Assembly: GCA_004293645.1 (NCBI GenBank)
Contig: REAB01000050.1
Coordinates: forward strand, 1 to 64,000
Reading direction: 5' to 3'
DNA length: 64,000 nucleotides
DNA from: Cytophagia bacterium
Lineage (GTDB): Bacteria > Bacteroidota > Bacteroidia > Cytophagales > Spirosomataceae
Below the pieces are notes generated by a model. It was not told the DNA's origin, searched no databases, and saw nothing but the letters and a program-made list of their open reading frames with translations. Shown here piece after piece: positions 17,401 through 26,783 of this stretch (its first letter is position 1; every line of letters begins with the position of its first letter). The position numbers were made by a program, and so were the translations under genes.

Positions 17401-18501
17401 TCAAACTCCTGGTTTTACAAAAGGCAATTTTATGATTTGTGCTTTTAAGAGGCGGTCGCGTACTTTGATGAATACCTCACTGCCTACTTTGCTTTGAGCG
17501 GTAGGCACATAGCCCAAGCCAATGCCTTTGCCCAAAGTAGGCGACTGCGTACCCGACGTTACGTGGCCAATTACGCCGCCGTCGGCATCACAAATTTCAT
17601 AATGCCCGCGCGGAATACCACGGTCAATGAGTTCAAATGCCACTAATTTATTGGCCAAACCAATCTGTTTTTGTTGTAACAATGCCTCTGAGTTTACAAA
17701 GTTTTTGGTAAATTTTGTTACCCAACCCAAGCCTGCTTCGAGCGGCGAAGTGGTGTCGTCAATGTCGTTTCCGTAGAGGCAATAGCCCATTTCGAGGCGG
17801 AGCGTGTCGCGGGCACCCAAGCCAACGGGCTTGATGTCAAACTCAGCCCCTGCTTCAAAAATGGCATTCCACATGGCTTCTGCATCTTTGTTCCACACAT
17901 AAATTTCAAAACCGCCCGCACCCGTGTAGCCCGTTGCCGAAACGATAACGTCATTGATACCAGCTACGACACCCGTTTTGAAAGTGTAATAATCCATTGC
18001 AGCCAAGTCTATTTCGGTGAGTTTTTGGAGCGTAGCACTGGCTTGCGGGCCTTGCACGGCCAACAAGCAAAGGCGGTCAGAAATGTTTTCCATGGTTGCG
18101 CCTTCGGTATTGTGGCTCGCAATCCAATTCCAGTCTTTTTCGATGTTAGAGGCATTGACTACTAACAAATATTCTTCGGCATCAATTTGATACACCAGTA
18201 GGTCATCTACTACGCCACCCGTAGCATTGGGGAGGTAGCTGTACTGAATTTTTCCGTTAAACAACGCACTGGCATCGTTGGCCGACACCCGTTGAATCAA
18301 GTCAAGGGCTTTGGGGCCTTTGATGATAAATTCGCCCATGTGCGAAACATCAAAAACGCCCACTCCGTTGCGTACGCAGTGGTGTTCTTCCAAATCGGAA
18401 GAGTAGCGAACGGGCATCAAAAAGCCCGCAAAAGGCACCATTTTCGCGCCCAATTGTTGGTGAATGTGTTCGAGCGGAACGTGTAGCAATGTTTCAGACA
18501 T
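17401..18501 (-). CDS. gcvT: Aminomethyltransferase (glycine cleavage system T protein)
   Basis: A 366-residue T protein that moves the methylene group from aminomethyl-lipoyl-H to tetrahydrofolate. Family motifs: [37 protein letters not shown] at residues 21-57, [41 protein letters not shown] and the C-terminal barrel with [22 protein letters not shown]. Length is normal. The matching H protein gene (gcvH) is 29 kb away at 47368, so the pathway genes are dispersed. I see no glycine riboswitch upstream. The AT-rich R-M locus starts 147 bp upstream. Confidence 0.96.
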
Positions 18502-18648
18502 AAAGTAGTTTGTTATTTGAGGTTTGTTATTCGAAGTAAGTAGCTTCTGCTTGACCGCCTATACGGTTACAAAACTACGTTTAAAATGGTTTGGAGGTTG
18601 GCTAAGAAGTGGTAAAAATGGTAATGAAAGCCCAAATTAGGCCATCTT

Positions 18649-19452
18649 TCATTCAGCCATACCTATAATTCTTAGTGAGGTAAGCAAAACATCTACCATT
18701 ATGGGCAGCATTTCTTCAATGGTCCATTCGGTTGGTTTGGTATAAATTGATACCGCTTGCAACATAACAGATTGTCCGTCAATAGAGATAAATATATTTT
18801 CACAACTATTCCGATTAATGGGTAAACTATAATTTGATGCAGTTAGTCTGTCAATTCTATTTAAAGAACCTGCATCGTGTTTCAAAATCACCTCCGTTCC
18901 GTCTGGTCTTGTTACTGCTACCGATTCGGTGAGAAAGTTTGAGCCTTGCAAAAACAAAATGTAAGGAAAATGCTTTTCATCAATCATTAGGTTTCTTATT
19001 TCATTGATATTTTTATGGGAACGCTCAATTGCATTTCCTGCTACCATCAGCTCTTGATTGTTGTTTTTACCAACCAAAATTCCCTTGCTAATATTTTCAA
19101 TGTCCTTTCCCTGATGTTTGGCTTCGCATACTAATACAATACGCCATTTGCCGTCATTGTCTTTGACTTCAATAATTCCACCATCGGGTTTTATTGACGC
19201 TTTGGCAACAAATATTGTTGCGCCCAATCTTGGGTCAACAGAATGGAGTTTTTCATTAATCTCCTTTTTTTCAATGCTATCTCTGAAACGAAATTCAAGG
19301 TTGGGGAAGTCTTTTTTAAAAGTCTCAAAAACAACTTTTGAGAAATCATTTACTGATATGTCATGTTTTTGGGCATTTTTACCGAATATTTCCTTTGGTC
19401 CTTGACCTCTTACTTTTTCTATTCTTAATCGGTCTGTTTGCTTTTTCTTCAT
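18649..19452 (-). CDS. EcoRI-family type II restriction endonuclease
   Basis: A 267-residue enzyme strikingly close to E. coli R.EcoRI (277 residues), which cuts GAATTC. From memory of the EcoRI sequence, long blocks agree: FRFRDSIEKKEINE, SIKPDGGIIEVKD, VCEAKHQGKDI, AGNAIERSHKNINEI, HFPYILFLQGSNFLTE and LNRIDRLTASNYSLPINRN. The catalytic set D90, E110 and K112 corresponds to EcoRI D91, E111 and K113. The recognition segment N140-A-I-E-R144 is intact. Encoded 22 bp downstream of the cognate methylase on the same strand. The region is clearly more AT-rich than its neighbours, pointing to transfer. Recognition of GAATTC is a strong inference, not shown. Confidence 0.95.
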   Translation of the reverse strand: MKKKQTDRLRIEKVRGQGPKEIFGKNAQKHDISVNDFSKVVFETFKKDFPNLEFRFRDSIEKKEINEKLHSVDPRLGATIFVAKASIKPDGGIIEVKDNDGKWRIVLVCEAKHQGKDIENISKGILVGKNNNQELMVAGNAIERSHKNINEIRNLMIDEKHFPYILFLQGSNFLTESVAVTRPDGTEVILKHDAGSLNRIDRLTASNYSLPINRNSCENIFISIDGQSVMLQAVSIYTKPTEWTIEEMLPIMVDVLLTSLRIIGMAE

Positions 19453-19474
19453 TTGTGCCTCTGTATGGAAAAAT

Positions 19475-20458
19475 TTAGAGCCTTCTATTCTTGATTAAAA
19501 TTCTAAAATAAGGACATTTACCATTGATTGATAAGTCTTTATCATCGTTTCCCTTTCTAAATTTCACTAATTCAAATTGTTCGGGATTGTATTTATGTAA
19601 AAAGGTTATCGGAACGCCCATAATACCTTTATAGTCCATTGGTATATCTTGGGTTTTGTTTACATTGATTGCATCGTAGTTATCAAATTTAGGATATTGG
19701 CTTTCGTTTCCATAATAAGTTTTCGTGAGAGCAATGTCTTCGTGTCGTTTGGAAGTGTCCAAATTTGTGAGCCACAAACAATTATTTGGAGAGATTATTT
19801 TACCTCCTGAACCATCAATATACGTCTCCGTTCCGTACAGTTCGTAGTGTTCGGGAACTATAAAACCTGAGATACCTCTGCCCATATTGATACCCAACCA
19901 AGCTTTGTTTTCTTTAATTAGTTTGAAAATTTCTTTATACGTTATTGCGTTGATATTACCTATAATCAAAAATTTTTTTTCATATTTTACCAATTGCTCA
20001 ACGTATTCTCTGAATAGGGAGAAAGGTGGGTTAGTTACTACAATGTCTGATTGTTTTAATAGTCCAATAGACTCTTGACCACGAAAATCACCATCACCTT
20101 TAAGTGGTTTGATACCAATCTCTTCTGCATCGGGAATATTATTTCCATTTTTATCGCCTGTGTATTCAAGAAATACCGCTTTTTCAGATTCTCTTTGAAT
20201 AAATAAATCTTTTTCTTGATTCTTGTAGCAAGTTGTTAGCAGTCTTTTTAGTCCTAAACTTTCAAAATTGTAAGCAAAATAATTAAAAAAGTTGCTATTT
20301 CTTGGGTCGTCGCAATTACAATAGACCACCTTGTTTTTAAAGTGTTCTTTGTAATGAATCAGTTCCCTTTCAATATCTGAAAGTTGGGTATAAAACTCAT
20401 CTTTTTTTGAAAATTTTGCTATGTGTAGCGTTTGGTTCGGCGTTCTTTCCGCTATCAT
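19475..20458 (-). CDS. EcoRI-family adenine-specific DNA methyltransferase
   Basis: A 327-residue methylase matching M.EcoRI (about 325 residues) across its length: KDEFYTQLSDIERELIHYKEHF, VVYCNCDDPRNSNFFNYFA, DIVVTNPPFSLFREYVEQL, GRGISGFIVPEHYELYGTE, ISPNNCLWLTNLD, NYDAINVNKTQDIPMDY, GVPITFLHKYNPEQFEL and the C-terminal DLSINGKCPYFRILIKNR. The catalytic NPPF motif is at residues 143-146. It should methylate the second adenine of GAATTC and so protect host sites. It lies upstream of the nuclease gene, the reverse of the classical E. coli plasmid order (R then M). AT-rich like its partner. Confidence 0.95.
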   Translation of the reverse strand: MIAERTPNQTLHIAKFSKKDEFYTQLSDIERELIHYKEHFKNKVVYCNCDDPRNSNFFNYFAYNFESLGLKRLLTTCYKNQEKDLFIQRESEKAVFLEYTGDKNGNNIPDAEEIGIKPLKGDGDFRGQESIGLLKQSDIVVTNPPFSLFREYVEQLVKYEKKFLIIGNINAITYKEIFKLIKENKAWLGINMGRGISGFIVPEHYELYGTETYIDGSGGKIISPNNCLWLTNLDTSKRHEDIALTKTYYGNESQYPKFDNYDAINVNKTQDIPMDYKGIMGVPITFLHKYNPEQFELVKFRKGNDDKDLSINGKCPYFRILIKNRRL

Positions 20459-20562
20459 TGTTTTCTGTAATTAGGGCTGTAAAGTTACGTTTTTAATTTT
20501 TGTTATTTGTTAGATTTCCTGTCGCTTTTGGTGCTGCTCTTCGCTTACAACCCCAAATTGCT

Positions 20563-20570
20563 TACTTTTG
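20563..20570 (+). promoter_or_regulatory. -7 element TACTTTTG of gldG
   Basis: A perfect TAnnTTTG match 27 bp upstream of the gldG ATG. The spacing predicts a short leader of about 20 nt. No -33 TTTG at 19 bp is seen. Confidence 0.45.
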
Positions 20571-20597
20571 CGGTGGGCTATTGGCTTTTAATTTAGC

Positions 20598-22229
20598 ATG
20601 AAAAATAACTTATTGAAGTTTTTGCTTTTTGGGACCGTCTTGGTGGGGTTAAATCTACTGGCCGCTTTTGCGTTTGTGCGCTGGGACGCTACCGAAGAAA
20701 AACGCTACACCGTAGCCGATGCCACCAAAAAAATGCTCCAAAATTTGGACGGGCAGGTATTGGTAAAAGTCTATCTCACGGGCGATTTTCCGCCTGGCTT
20801 TGAACGCCTTGAAGGTGCTATCAAAGAAACATTGGCTTCTTTTTCGGACTATTCGGGGGCTAATTTGGCCTACCGTTTTATTGAACCAAAAGACCCCGCG
20901 CTGCAAGACGAACTGATGAAAAAAGGGCTGCTGCCCACCAATCTCTTTGCCAACGAAGACGGAAAAAAAACCGAGCGGTTGGTGTTTCCAGGGGCTTTGC
21001 TGGTGTATGAAGGCAAAGAATACCCCGTGCAATTGTTGAAAGGCAACAAATCGAACTCGTCAGAAGAACAGCTCAATCAGTCTTACGAAAACGTGGAGTT
21101 TGAGTTGGCATCGGCGATTCGCCAATTAACTCAGAAAAAACGCCAAAAAATTGCGATTTTGGTAAGCCATACCCAAGTGCCGCCACCGCGTTTTTCTGAC
21201 CTAATAGCCACACTTCAAGCGCGTTATGACGTATTTTTTGACCTCAACAATCCCGCCAACTACGACGGCATGGACGCACTCATTATTCCCAAACCTGACT
21301 TGCCTTTTAGCGAAGATGACAAATTTAAAATAGACCAGTTTATTGTAAAAGGCGGGAAAGCCCTGTTTTTTGTGGACGGCGCGCGCGTGGACAGCGTGAG
21401 TTTGGAAGGCACTTTTGCGCAGCCCAGCGGTCTCAATCTCGACGATTTATTGTTTAAATATGGCTGCCGCATCAACCAAAATTTGGTCAAAGATTTGAGC
21501 TGTGCGTACATTCCGCTCAACGTGGGCAACATGGGCGACCAGCCGCAGATTAAGCCCATGCCGTGGCGGTTTTTTCCGTTGGTCAACAACTTTGGCAACC
21601 ACCCCATTGTTCGCAATTTAGATGCCGTTTATACCCGTTTTCCCAGTTCTATTGACACCGTGGCGGTGGCTGGAATCAAAAAAACGCCGCTGTTGCTGTC
21701 GTCGCAATACACCAAACTGCTTAAAGCACCCGCGCTGGTGGCTTACAACGAAGCCCGCCAACAACCCGACCCGCGCACTTACAACGGAGGCGTACAAACG
21801 CTGGCTTTGCTACTCGAAGGGTCCTTTGTGTCGCTTTTCAACAACCGTATTTTGCCCACCGACCCGCGCAGTGCGGGCTTTGTGAGCGGCGGCAAAACGT
21901 CAAAAATACTGGTTTGTGCCGATGGTGATTTGATTGTAAACGACATAGACTACAAACGCAACGCGCCGCTGCCATTGGGCTACGACCGCCTTTCGCAAAA
22001 CACCTTTGCCAACAAGGACTTTGTAATTTATGCCCTCGAATATCTTCTCGATGCCGACGGCCTCATTACGGCACGCAACAAGCAGATTACGCTGCGACCT
22101 TTGGATAAAATTAAGCTCAAAGAAGAACGCACGCAATGGCAAATACTCAACCTGCTGGGGCCATTGGTTTGGGTGGGGCTTATTGGCGTAGGTTGGCAAT
22201 GGCGACGTAAACGCCGTTATGGCCAATAG
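20598..22229 (+). CDS. gldG: Gliding-motility-associated ABC transporter protein GldG
   Basis: A 543-residue protein of the GldG/Mfd-like ABC_transp_aux family. N-terminal membrane helix (LLKFLLFGTVLVGLNLLAAFAFVRWD), then RYTVADATKKMLQNLDGQVLVKVYLTGDFPPGFERL, a large periplasmic region with QKIAILVSHTQ and the DALIIPKPDLPFSEDDKFKIDQF block, and a C-terminal helix (LLGPLVWVGLIGVGWQW) ending in basic residues. GldG works with GldF and the ATPase GldA in Bacteroidota gliding and type IX secretion organisms. The permease gene gldF, which usually precedes gldG, is not present here; the R-M locus occupies that place on the opposite strand. Confidence 0.92.
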   Translation: MKNNLLKFLLFGTVLVGLNLLAAFAFVRWDATEEKRYTVADATKKMLQNLDGQVLVKVYLTGDFPPGFERLEGAIKETLASFSDYSGANLAYRFIEPKDPALQDELMKKGLLPTNLFANEDGKKTERLVFPGALLVYEGKEYPVQLLKGNKSNSSEEQLNQSYENVEFELASAIRQLTQKKRQKIAILVSHTQVPPPRFSDLIATLQARYDVFFDLNNPANYDGMDALIIPKPDLPFSEDDKFKIDQFIVKGGKALFFVDGARVDSVSLEGTFAQPSGLNLDDLLFKYGCRINQNLVKDLSCAYIPLNVGNMGDQPQIKPMPWRFFPLVNNFGNHPIVRNLDAVYTRFPSSIDTVAVAGIKKTPLLLSSQYTKLLKAPALVAYNEARQQPDPRTYNGGVQTLALLLEGSFVSLFNNRILPTDPRSAGFVSGGKTSKILVCADGDLIVNDIDYKRNAPLPLGYDRLSQNTFANKDFVIYALEYLLDADGLITARNKQITLRPLDKIKLKEERTQWQILNLLGPLVWVGLIGVGWQWRRKRRYGQ

Positions 22230-22488
22230 AAACTCACCGCATCGAAGGCTTTCAAATGATTAAAAACTTCGTTAAGTAGTCCACGGTCAATAATCAATAG
22301 AATCGCAAAGTGCTTATTATCAAAGTTTTATACAAAATTGAAACGTCGTTTATTTATACCAAATTACTTACAACTTAGGTTCGCTGCTGTTTATAGCCTA
22401 TTTTAAAACCGTTTCAAATAAAGTCGAACCCATCTCCAAAAAATGTACTTTTTAAAGATTTAATATAAAAAATATACGCTCCCTACGC

Positions 22489-23649
22489 ATGCACGCCGAC
22501 AGTCTCAAAAAACAATTTCAAACCGCATTTACTACGCTTCCTACGCTTGTTGTGCGCGCACCAGGGCGCATCAACCTCATTGGCGAACACACCGACTACA
22601 ACGGCGGATTTGTGATGCCCGCCAGCATTGACAAGGCCATTTGGTTTGCTGCTGCTCCCCGTTCCGACCAGCAGTGCGTGTTGGTGGCCGCCGATTTAAA
22701 CGAAAAGCACGAGTTTGCGCTCTCAGATTTGAGTAAGTCTGACAAGTCTTGGACGCAATACCCCATGGGCGTTTTGAATGAATTAATGGCGGTAGGTTTG
22801 ATGCCCAAAACGGGTTTCAACTTGTTGTTTGGGGGCAACATTCCGTTGGGGGCGGGCTTGTCGTCGTCGGCGGCGGTAGAGTGCGGCACGGCTTTTGTGC
22901 TTAACGAGCTTTTTGGGTTTGGCCTCTCGCGCCTCGAAATGGTAAAAATAGCGCAACGCGCCGAAAACAATTTTGTGGGCTTGCAGTGCGGCATCATGGA
23001 TATGTTTGCGTCTATGATGGGAAAAGCTGCGTCGGTCATTCGGCTTGATTGCCGCAGTTTAGAATATACTTATTTTCCGTTCAATGCGCCCCACCACAGC
23101 CTCGTTTTGTGCGATTCGGGCGTGAAACACTCCTTGGCAGGTTCGGAATACAACACCCGCCGCCAAGAATGTGAAACGGGTGTAAATATATTGCAACAAT
23201 TTGATAATCAGACAGAAAGCCTCCGCGATGTTTCAATGGCTTTCTTGCAACAACACCAAGCAGCGTTGCCACCCGTGGTGTATCAAAGGTGCCAGTATAT
23301 AGTGTCTGAGATTGAGCGGGTGCGGCAAGCAGGGCAATTGTTGGAAGCGGGTAACTTGGCAGGGTTTGGCCAATTGATGTACCAAACCCACGATGGCTTG
23401 CAGCATCAATACGAAGTGAGTTGCCCCGAATTGGACTTGTTGGTGGCACACACCCGTTCGCTTGGTAGTGTGCTGGGCGCGCGCTTGATGGGTGGCGGTT
23501 TTGGAGGCTGTACGCTCAATTTGGTAGAAAAAAGCCACGTTTCAGAATTTATTGAAAATATAACGCACGCCTATCAGATACAAACAGGAATTGACTTAAC
23601 TTGCCATGAAGTAGTGTTGAGCAACGGCACCGAAAAAATTTCCGACTAA
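22489..23649 (+). CDS. galK: Galactokinase
   Basis: A 386-residue GHMP kinase that phosphorylates galactose at C1 (Leloir pathway), in the cytoplasm. Signatures: APGRINLIGEHTDYNGGFVMP (galactokinase signature, residues 24-44), GGNIPLGAGLSSSAAVECG (ATP-binding GHMP motif) and GARLMGGGFGGCTLNLV at the C-terminus. Length is normal. A 259-bp AT-rich spacer without evident elements separates it from gldG. It ends 12 bp before glpD, so the two may share a transcript, though galactose and glycerol metabolism are not otherwise linked. Confidence 0.96.
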   Translation: MHADSLKKQFQTAFTTLPTLVVRAPGRINLIGEHTDYNGGFVMPASIDKAIWFAAAPRSDQQCVLVAADLNEKHEFALSDLSKSDKSWTQYPMGVLNELMAVGLMPKTGFNLLFGGNIPLGAGLSSSAAVECGTAFVLNELFGFGLSRLEMVKIAQRAENNFVGLQCGIMDMFASMMGKAASVIRLDCRSLEYTYFPFNAPHHSLVLCDSGVKHSLAGSEYNTRRQECETGVNILQQFDNQTESLRDVSMAFLQQHQAALPPVVYQRCQYIVSEIERVRQAGQLLEAGNLAGFGQLMYQTHDGLQHQYEVSCPELDLLVAHTRSLGSVLGARLMGGGFGGCTLNLVEKSHVSEFIENITHAYQIQTGIDLTCHEVVLSNGTEKISD

Positions 23650-23661
23650 AAAATTAACTTC

Positions 23662-25317
23662 ATGAATCGTTCCAAAAATATCGAACAGCTTCAAAATCAG
23701 ACTTTTGATGTGTGCATTATCGGGGCTGGGGCCAGTGGTACGGGCTGCGCATTAGATGCTGCCCTGCGCGGTATGAAAGTAGCCCTGATTGACAAAACCG
23801 ACTTTGCCGCCGAAACTTCATCGCGCTCTACCAAGCTCATTCACGGTGGGGTGCGTTATTTGGAGCAAGCGTTCAAAAACTTCGATTTTGCCCAACTCAA
23901 ACAAGTTAAGCACGGCCTGGAAGAGCGGCACATTGTGATGCGCAACGCGCCCCACTTGGCGCAGCCGTTGGCACTCATTACGCCCGTTTTCAGTTGGTTT
24001 GAAGGAATGTATTTTACCATTGGGCTTTCTATTTACGGGCTTTTTGCCAAAGGCGACCCGCTACCTCCCGCCCAATGGCTCAACAAAAAAGCAACCCTCG
24101 CCCGAATGCCCACGCTCACGCCACGTATTCACAGCTCGGTGATGTATTACGACGGCCAGCACGACGATGCCCGCTACTGCTTGGCATTGGCCCAAAGCGC
24201 CCACGAAGCGGGCGCATCGGTAGTTAATCACCTGGAAATCAAGTCTTTTTCTAAAAATGCCGACGGCAAACTCTCCACAGCGCAAGTGCGCGACACGCTC
24301 ACGGGCAAGGAGTTTGAAATACAATCCAAGCTGTTTATCAACTGCGCGGGGCCTTATGCCGATGCCATTCGGCGCATGGCCAGCCCTGAAGTTACGCCCC
24401 GTTTGCGCCCCAGCAAAGGCGTACACATTATTTTACCCCACGAAGTGCTAAAAAGCCAAGATGCCATGCTCATTCCCAAAACCAAAGACGGGCGCGTGGT
24501 ATTTGTGATTCCGTTTGAGGGCGAAGTAATGGTGGGCACCACCGACGACGAGTACCGTGACTTGGACAAAGAACCCATTTTGGAAGAAAAAGAAGTGGAT
24601 TTTTTGCTCGAAACCCTCGAACCGTTTTTGGCCAAAACCCCCACCCGCAGCCAAGTAAAAGCAGGATTTGGTGGCCTGCGACCGCTCATTGGGGTAACCG
24701 ACTCAAAAGCCACCAAAAAATTGGTGCGCGACCACGAAGTAGAGCACGACCTCAACAGCAATCTGATAAGTTTGTTGGGTGGAAAATGGACCACTTACCG
24801 CCTCATGGCCAAAGATACCATTGATTTAGTGGCCGAATTGCTCCAAAATACGGCTCCCTGCCAAACCCACGACCACCTGCTGATGGGCGCAGAAGGCTAC
24901 CGTTTTGAAGATTGGGAAACCCTGCAAAAACAGTACAATTTGGCCGAAGACACCGCCAAGCACCTTGTTACCAAATACGGCAACAAAGCCGAAGAAGTAG
25001 CTAAAATAGCGAAAAGAGCCAAAGAGGGGCCAGAAATGGCGGAAAAACTGCACCCCAAGTATCCGTTTATTCAGGCCGAAGTAATTTATCAGGCGCGGCA
25101 CGAAATGGCCTGCACCGTGCGCGACGTACTGGCTCGCCGCATTCGCCTCGAACTCATGGACTGGCAAGCCGCTCAAGAAGTGGTGTATTTGGTGGGTGCT
25201 TGGTTGGCCGTGGAACTGGACTGGACAGGGCCAGAATTGGAACGCCAAATGGACGAATACCAAAACCAACTCGACCAGTTTATGCAGCGTGCCGCCGTTG
25301 AGACCCCAAGTGCTTGA
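23662..25317 (+). CDS. glpD: Glycerol-3-phosphate dehydrogenase/oxidase
   Basis: A 551-residue FAD-dependent dehydrogenase that oxidises glycerol 3-phosphate to dihydroxyacetone phosphate and feeds electrons to menaquinone at the inner membrane. The FAD-binding motif is DVCIIGAGASGTGCALDAALRG (residues about 16-37). Also visible are SSRSTKLIHGGVRYLEQAF, the conserved VMVGTTDDEY block, GGLRPLI and LLGGKWTTYRLMAKDTID. The C-terminal DAO_C helical domain includes YQARHEMACTVRDVLARRIRLEL. Length is normal. Lies between galK (12 bp) and a methyltransferase (18 bp). Confidence 0.96.
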   Translation: MNRSKNIEQLQNQTFDVCIIGAGASGTGCALDAALRGMKVALIDKTDFAAETSSRSTKLIHGGVRYLEQAFKNFDFAQLKQVKHGLEERHIVMRNAPHLAQPLALITPVFSWFEGMYFTIGLSIYGLFAKGDPLPPAQWLNKKATLARMPTLTPRIHSSVMYYDGQHDDARYCLALAQSAHEAGASVVNHLEIKSFSKNADGKLSTAQVRDTLTGKEFEIQSKLFINCAGPYADAIRRMASPEVTPRLRPSKGVHIILPHEVLKSQDAMLIPKTKDGRVVFVIPFEGEVMVGTTDDEYRDLDKEPILEEKEVDFLLETLEPFLAKTPTRSQVKAGFGGLRPLIGVTDSKATKKLVRDHEVEHDLNSNLISLLGGKWTTYRLMAKDTIDLVAELLQNTAPCQTHDHLLMGAEGYRFEDWETLQKQYNLAEDTAKHLVTKYGNKAEEVAKIAKRAKEGPEMAEKLHPKYPFIQAEVIYQARHEMACTVRDVLARRIRLELMDWQAAQEVVYLVGAWLAVELDWTGPELERQMDEYQNQLDQFMQRAAVETPSA

Positions 25318-25335
25318 TTACAAACAAAATACCAA

Positions 25336-26184
25336 ATGTATAACACCGAAAGTTACCGCAAACACCAAGAATTTATTGATTCAAAAAGCGATGAAACGTA
25401 CATCAAAGAGCTGTACAACCACAACAGCCCCATTCATCATTACAACCAGCTATTTTTTGAATTCCTGAATCCTTTTGTAGAACCAGCATCGGCTTGGCTC
25501 ACCGTAGGCGACTCTACGGGCATTGACGCGGCTTACCTCAAAAAACAAGGCGGCGTAGCTACCGCCTCCGATTTGAGCACCAAAACCTTGGAGCGGGTCT
25601 TTGCCCAACAACTCATTGACGGCTTTTCGGTTCAAAATGTGGAGCAATTGAGCTACCCAAACAACAGCTTCGACTACGTTTGTTGCAAAGAAGCCTACCA
25701 CCATTTTCCGCGCCCTGCCATTGGCTTTTACGAAATGCTCCGCGTAGCCCGCAAAGGTGTGGTTATCATCGAGCCGTCCGACATCAACTTGGCCTACCCC
25801 GTGCTGCTGTTTGTCAGAAATATATTAGACCGAATCAGTCCCAAACTGCTGCGAAAAATCTGGAAAAACCAGTATTCCTACGAAATCGTGGGCAACTTTG
25901 TCTATAAAATCTCGTTTCGGGAATTTGAAAAAATGGCCGCCGCTTTAGATTTGCCCTGTGTGGCCTACGCGGGTTTCAATACCATGATGGGCGCGCGGTG
26001 GGACGCTCAATTCGTCCAAAAACTCAAACGTTTTTTTGTAGATATGCTCTGTAAAATATCTTTACTGCCCTACCAGCATTTGTCGCTGGTGGTGTTTAAA
26101 GAAAAACCAAGCGAAACTACCCGAAAAAAAATGCAACAAATGGGGTACAAAATCTACGATTTACCCAAAAACCCTTATAATTGA
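25336..26184 (+). CDS. Class I SAM-dependent methyltransferase
   Basis: A 282-residue methyltransferase. The SAM-binding glycine motif is altered but recognisable in AWLTVGDSTGIDAAYLKKQG (residues about 53-72), followed by ATASDLSTKTLERVF, PNNSFDYVCCKEAYHHFPRPAIGFYEMLRVARKGVVIIEP and the C-terminal VVFKEKPS strand. The KEAYHHFPRP segment is the motif IV to VI region of Methyltransf_11 proteins. Substrate unknown. It follows glpD by 18 bp and probably shares its transcript. A palindromic repeat element lies just downstream. Confidence 0.88.
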   Translation: MYNTESYRKHQEFIDSKSDETYIKELYNHNSPIHHYNQLFFEFLNPFVEPASAWLTVGDSTGIDAAYLKKQGGVATASDLSTKTLERVFAQQLIDGFSVQNVEQLSYPNNSFDYVCCKEAYHHFPRPAIGFYEMLRVARKGVVIIEPSDINLAYPVLLFVRNILDRISPKLLRKIWKNQYSYEIVGNFVYKISFREFEKMAAALDLPCVAYAGFNTMMGARWDAQFVQKLKRFFVDMLCKISLLPYQHLSLVVFKEKPSETTRKKMQQMGYKIYDLPKNPYN

Positions 26185-26209
26185 CAAGTGCGCAGGTAAG
26201 AAACAAAAT

Positions 26210-26300
26210 ACTTTTTGTCATGCTGACGAAGGAAGCATCTAAGTCGTTGTAGATACCTCCTTCGTCGGTATGACAAAAGTTTTATCAGCATGACAAAATA
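26210..26300. repeat. Imperfect palindromic repeat element (GTCATGCTGACGAAGGAAGC type)
   Basis: Left arm 26210-26240 and right arm 26251-26280 are near-perfect inverse copies of about 30 bp around a 10-nt loop. A further partial inverted copy (TTTATCAGCATGACAAAA) follows at 26281-26298. The core GTCATGCTGACGAAGGAAGC belongs to a widely scattered type of short palindromic element in bacterial chromosomes. A relative lies at 33038-33112. It may double as the terminator of the glpD-methyltransferase transcript. Confidence 0.85.
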
Positions 26301-26333
26301 GTAATTAATAATCATTTAATCCCCTAAAAAACA

Positions 26334-26783
26334 ATGCTTCGTTCGCTCTTATTCTCCGCCCTACTCTGTGTTTCAACGCTTGCTCTGGCACAAAAAAAAA
26401 TCATCTCAACGCCCAACGCCCCCGTGCCTATTGCGCCTTATAGTCAGGCAGTTGAGGCGGGTGGCCTCGTTTTTGTGGCGGGACAAATTGGCCTCGACCC
26501 CGCCACGCGGCAGCTTGTTGCGGGTGGCATTGAAGCCGAAACCACCCGCACAATGGCCAACGTCAAAGCCATTTTGGCCGCCGCAGGCCTCGGCATGGAC
26601 GACATCGTAAACACCACTATTTATCTGAAAGACTTGGCTCATTTTCAAAAAGTAAACGAACTCTACGGGGCTTATTTTACGGGCAATTTCCCCGCCCGAA
26701 CCACCGTAGGCGTAGCTAATTTGCCAGGCGGAGCCAGCATCGAAATCGCCGTGGTAGCTGCCCAACGCCCCCGCCGAAAATAG
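26334..26783 (+). CDS. Exported RidA (YjgF/YER057c/UK114) family protein
   Basis: A 149-residue RidA-fold protein with an N-terminal signal peptide (MLRSLLFSALLCVSTLALAQ). RidA hydrolyses reactive enamine/imine intermediates released by PLP enzymes. The family core is intact: PVPIAPYSQAVEAGGLVFVAGQIGLDP, NVKAILAAAGLGMDDIVNTTIYLKD, NFPARTTVGVANLPGGASIEI, including the active-site Arg in the PARTTV motif. Periplasmic location is unusual for RidA; a second, cytosolic paralogue is at 62560-62940. The final 20 bp of this gene, including all but one base of the stop codon, recur at 27607-27626. Confidence 0.92.
   Translation: MLRSLLFSALLCVSTLALAQKKIISTPNAPVPIAPYSQAVEAGGLVFVAGQIGLDPATRQLVAGGIEAETTRTMANVKAILAAAGLGMDDIVNTTIYLKDLAHFQKVNELYGAYFTGNFPARTTVGVANLPGGASIEIAVVAAQRPRRK
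26763..26782. repeat. 20-bp direct repeat, left copy (ridA 3' end)
   Basis: CAACGCCCCCGCCGAAAATA, identical to the copy at 27607-27626. It covers the last six codons and the first two bases of the stop codon of the exported ridA. Confidence 0.9.

Follow-up and report, generated by a model that had tools for sequence, protein, structure and literature searches.

The window, a stretch of 64,000 nucleotides analysed as a whole, carries a complete pair of restriction (R) and modification (M) genes that very probably constitutes an EcoRI-family system of Type IIP, probably active and directed at GAATTC; we infer both the activity and the exact specificity. The pair is a fresh example of the well-known EcoRI kind and not a new type of system. 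The initial annotation had placed a complete EcoRI-type pair at 18649-20458, between gcvT and gldG. Both open reading frames (ORFs) lie exactly there on the minus strand and are intact, and the Pfam domains of the two neighbours agree with the named flanks. The features of the locus are as follows.

17401-18501, minus strand: gcvT (Pfam GCV_T), one flank of the R-M pair
18509-18519, no strand assigned: left-hand member of two 11-nt direct repeats, TTTGTTATTTG, on either side of the R-M pair; may be due to chance in AT-rich DNA
18649-19452, minus strand: ecoRIR-type gene for a restriction endonuclease of 267 aa, PF02963 (ORF and homology)
19453-19474, minus strand: 22-nt gap from the M stop to the R start; the two genes, so close together on one strand, may be co-transcribed with M in front
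19475-20458, minus strand: ecoRIM-type gene for an adenine-N6 methyltransferase of 327 aa, PF13651, upstream of R (ORF and homology)
20480-20487, minus strand: weak candidate Bacteroidota -7 element, TAACTTTA, about 22 nt 5' of the M start (consensus match with 1 mismatch)
20499-20509, no strand assigned: right copy of the 11-nt repeat, likewise possibly a chance match in AT-rich DNA
20598-22229, plus strand: gldG-type gene (Pfam ABC_transp_aux), the other flank of the pair

The R and M frames in the window contain zero stops and zero frameshifts, and PADLOC called the pair a Type II REase and MTase. The arrangement is that of a Type II R-M system, with R and M adjacent, intact and on the same strand, 22 nt apart. 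The -7 consensus of Bacteroidota is TAnnTTTG; the candidate 5' of M is a weak match, and no recognisable -33 element was seen 5' of M. No C-protein gene was found between or beside R and M in the window. The 11-nt repeat was considered as a target duplication and rejected because it is too short and AT-rich.

The window R is 57% identical (151/267) to the plasmid R.EcoRI of E. coli (reference NZ_CP103650.1) over nearly the full length, and it matched the solved R.EcoRI (PDB 1ckq) over residues 2-264 with an E-value of 9.7e-98. It belongs to the Pfam family EcoRI (PF02963; E 7e-118, 392.7 bits, cut-off 22). The window M is 67% identical (217/325) to the E. coli plasmid M.EcoRI and belongs to the Pfam family EcoRI_methylase (PF13651; E 2e-136, 455.4 bits, cut-off 26.4). 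The NPPF motif that had been read in the methylase was found within TNPPFSLFREY. The initial annotation had set a floor of about 30% identity for this assignment; both proteins lie above it, and base-contact substitution is absent at the principal residues.

The PD-(D/E)xK catalytic residues P90, D91, E111 and K113 (E. coli numbering, used hereafter) are all kept in the window R. In the numbering of the window R itself, D91/E111/K113 and N141-R145 become D90/E110/K112 and N140-R144, and the catalytic set listed earlier in that numbering was right. Recognition contacts of EcoRI include N141, A142 and R145 (PMC4081073), along with E144 and R200 (PMC11755562). The window R keeps M137, A139, G140, N141, A142, E144, R145, R200 and R203, and the replacement of A138 by V is the sole change among the tested positions of the recognition chain (M137-R145 plus R200/R203). 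Beyond the recognition segment, E192 is replaced by K and Y193 by H; the alignment is free of gaps around 138 and 192/193. The claim that the recognition segment is conserved therefore holds for the principal base contacts, but not for V138, and K192/H193 differ outside the segment. In the clade of the window R, V138 is usual (exceptions: A, L, Q and P) and K192/H193 are near-universal.

Given that single changes at these positions relax E. coli EcoRI, the window enzyme could have a changed or relaxed specificity through Val138, Lys192 and His193, which we regard as quite improbable. Heitman and Model (1990) reportedly found that E192K and Y193H relax the specificity of E. coli EcoRI. The A138T mutation makes E. 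coli EcoRI promiscuous and gives it star activity at AAATTC (PMC11755562). However, all three positions vary widely among EcoRI homologues (A/V/S/P/Q/L at 138, E/K/Q/R/V/S at 192 and Y/H/P at 193), so the phenotype of a single mutant need not transfer, and N141, A142, E144, R145, R200 and R203 are intact. Since much of the clade departs from E. coli EcoRI at 138, 192 and 193, and one of these is a known fidelity position, at which mutation relaxes fidelity, the clade offers a ready natural test of EcoRI fidelity.

The GAATTC content of the host DNA was examined at two scales. The four sites noted earlier in the 64 kb (6970, 16205, 25459 and 41801) are exact in position and number. Base composition predicts 17.7 sites (P = 1e-4), but a maximal-order Markov model predicts 8.7, and against this model the deficit is not significant (P = 0.07); the window count alone is therefore weak evidence. 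The whole genome holds 315 GAATTC in 4.63 Mb. We measured depletion as the share of each x in all xAATTC across 59 related genomes, 37 of them in the family. GAATTC accounted for 6.6% of xAATTC in the window genome and for 4.2% in G006, the other R carrier of the same family, against a family median of 16.6% and a lowest value of 9.9% among the 35 non-carriers. The assertion that GAATTC is rarer than chance predicts thus stands against base composition and genome-wide, where the depletion is clear, and fails against the Markov model in 64 kb. G006 and the window genome rank 1 and 2 for low GAATTC among the 37 family genomes, and random placement would give two carriers the lowest two ranks with a chance of 1 in 666. 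Of two further carriers, G055, from a different family, had a very low share (3.8%) and G038 showed mild to intermediate depletion (10.9%). GAATTC is about as scarce in four order-level relatives outside the family that lack PF02963 (G044, G056, G037 and G039), one of which, G037, has an EcoRI-type methylase. Given these GAATTC-poor non-carriers and the mild depletion in G038, depletion alone is not diagnostic.

The other xAATTC sites behaved differently. AAATTC, the A138T star site, made up 42% of xAATTC in the window genome against a median of 37% (rank 51/59), and the CAATTC share was also high; neither is depleted. The footprint is thus specific to GAATTC, with no sign of star-site restriction, which argues against a relaxed specificity of the window enzyme.

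Two side observations concern site avoidance. Strong GAATTC depletion also occurred in G044, G056, G039 and G058 without a PF02963 or PF13651 gene, which suggests other GAATTC-directed systems, or lost ones. Within the window, CCGCGG (0 vs 21.5 expected, P ~5e-10), CTCGAG (0 vs 10.5) and TTCGAA (3 vs 26.5), all under the maximal-order Markov model, are avoided more than GAATTC, a hint that restriction of other specificities may be at work.

An EcoRI-type system that has decayed or fallen silent, with both reading frames still open yet one or both enzymes unexpressed or inactive, is an unlikely explanation. There is a precedent in Prevotella intermedia ATCC 25611, whose pair M.Pin25611FORF1345P/R resembles the window pair, judging by its published description, in lying on a Bacteroidota chromosome with M directly followed by R and a predicted GAATTC specificity (PMC5608340). 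Its M is a homologue of M.EcoRI but only 51% identical to it, and GAATTC methylation was not detected in the methylome of that strain (PMC5608340). Homology alone is therefore no proof of activity, and the promoter candidate 5' of the window M is weak. Against silence, the window ORFs show no stop, frameshift or active-site loss, and the window genome is second-lowest in GAATTC of the 37 with the other carrier lowest, a ranking that implies active restriction over a long time.

M.EcoRI of E. coli methylates the inner A of GAATTC. By analogy, in the probably active system the window M would methylate an adenine of GAATTC in the host DNA, presumably the inner one, and incoming DNA with unmodified G/AATTC would be cut by a dimer of R. 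As R follows M on the same strand at a distance of 22 nt, modification may be made before restriction, and such an M-first operon could shield the host when the cassette enters. The cassette would have been resident long enough for GAATTC to be purged from the host.

The pair had been described as more AT-rich than its neighbours, in agreement with its GC content of 34.1% against 46.6% for the window; the 1.8 kb richest in AT in the whole window fall within it. GC3 was about 30% in the pair, compared with a mean of 55 ± 4% in 26 neighbouring ORFs. Homologous pairs elsewhere have 28-38% GC even where their flanks have 44-54%. Low GC is therefore a trait of the cassette and not a clue to one donor.

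A protein-pattern scan across 84,980 species genomes recovered 21 relatives of the window R. The identities were 91% for a Sphingobacteriaceae MAG, 84-87% for Bacteroidales and Prevotellaceae, 85% for Cytophagales, 84% for Flavobacterium luteum and 82% for Mucilaginibacter. Further relatives came from Oscillospiraceae (bins apparently from termite gut, judged by their names) and from one MAG each labelled as Limnohabitans and Phycisphaerales, in which the AT-rich contigs are possibly misbinned. PF02963 is sparse: it was above the cut-off in 4 of the 59 relatives and, at the level of the phylum, in 3 of 395 genomes, the window genome being counted in both. The R tree placed the window in a Bacteroidota-centred clade (support 98/99), separate from that of E. 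coli, and a constrained tree joining the same-family R copies was rejected (p-AU 0.0002). The window R is closer to the Sphingobacteriaceae copy (91%) than to the copy of its own family (85%); between the window genome and G006, gcvT is 80% and gldG 61% identical. The rejected same-family clade and the closer Sphingobacteriaceae copy point to horizontal transfer, mainly among Bacteroidota. We conclude that the cassette was most likely gained horizontally, with another Bacteroidota as the likeliest immediate donor.

The initial annotation had instead favoured a phylum-distant transfer, a claim that did not survive: the closest relatives (91, 87 and 85%) belong to Bacteroidota, and the enzymes of E. 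coli group in a clade of their own. A direct transfer of enterobacterial EcoRI into Cytophagales would fit the shared family, the clear homology and the foreign base composition. However, the plasmid-borne EcoRI R of Escherichia, Klebsiella and Raoultella is only 56-57% identical to the window R and falls in a different supported clade, compared with 84-91% for the Bacteroidota members. Moreover, G055, of the same order as the window genome, separately holds the E. coli-clade lineage in R-M order, so both EcoRI lineages occur in the order. We consider the enterobacterial route barely credible. Evidence of phage carriage was limited to a Helicobacter phage record and a 4.3-kb viral contig, the closer being 77% identical. 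The record, Helicobacter phage Pt11509_1 (L034, 16507-20953), contains a broken EcoRI-type pair with R cut to 170 aa and M in two ORFs.

No clean pre-insertion (empty) site was found. The gldG-side neighbour in the relatives examined is not gcvT, and the sample yielded no other genome of the genus, so an empty site could not be demonstrated. In four relatives (L074, L075, L077 and L078), an L-PSP-family gene lies divergent to gcvT at about 200 bp. The L-PSP-family gene closest to gcvT in the window is at 26334-26783, 7.8 kb off, and the R-M pair sits at the gcvT end of this interval (17401-26783). This difference in distance raises the possibility of a rearrangement breakpoint at the position of the pair; orthology is uncertain, since the window has two L-PSP paralogues.

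The E. coli small-plasmid EcoRI (PDB 1ckq, 1eri; NZ_CP103650.1) shares with the window pair both protein families, the active site, the core recognition residues and the predicted GAATTC specificity. The window pair differs in being chromosomal with M before R, where E. coli has R before M, and its R has V138, K192 and H193 and is shorter by about 10 aa, chiefly at the C-terminus. RsrI-type systems pair an EcoRI-like R with a PF01555-type methylase, M.RsrI itself being of that type, in contrast to the PF13651 methylase of the window. The RsrI endonuclease shares about 50% identity with EcoRI as well as its cut site (PMC4081073, PMC5896346). LraI of Lactococcus raffinolactis, likened to the window pair by its published description, is a characterised EcoRI isoschizomer and likewise an EcoRI-family Type II system, one for which G/AATTC cleavage has been demonstrated; it differs in its Firmicutes branch and in its demonstrated star activity at AAATTC (PMC5896346). 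By 2018, REBASE listed 526 EcoRI-like proteins, with more than 500 isoschizomers known across phyla (PMC5896346).

The M-then-R order had been singled out as the reverse of the classical plasmid order. This is true but not peculiar to the window: M precedes R in every window-clade locus with a PF13651 methylase where both genes could be read, and in P. intermedia too, whereas R comes first in G055 and in the plasmid clade of E. coli type. M-R pairs of the same layout were found in many Bacteroidota. The EcoRI clade documented here is centred on Bacteroidota, has a fixed M-R order and leaves a measurable, site-specific footprint in the host genome. Three basal clade members have a PF01555 methylase, upstream of R in L025 and downstream in L018 and L017. 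Given that R proteins so closely related work with methylases of two unrelated families, PF13651 and PF01555, we propose a partner exchange, which is directly traceable here and from which the reversed order may derive. A broader reading is that the V138/K192/H193 clade is a natural variant of differing fidelity or specificity, stabilised by co-adapted residues and founded by a PF01555/PF13651 exchange around the same endonuclease that reversed the order; we hold it to be doubtful.

Several further loci bear on the methylase partners. An EcoRI-type R with a PF01555 methylase, not PF13651, was seen at L017:5223-6179, L018:5242-6192 and L025:2289-3257, and also at L019:2821-3795 and L032:917-1852. 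G010, a same-family genome without PF02963, has tandem EcoRI-type methylase genes with open frames of 386 and 378 aa (G010:C42:59303-61644). In seven MAGs, four from Bacillota (L006, L011, L014 and L015, apparently termite gut) and three from Bacteroidota (L003, L004 and L008), R is 82-88% identical to the window R, while M is only about 49% or 69% identical with an insertion of 15-35 aa. The methylase has thus diverged far more than the endonuclease in these MAGs, the reverse of the usual pattern.
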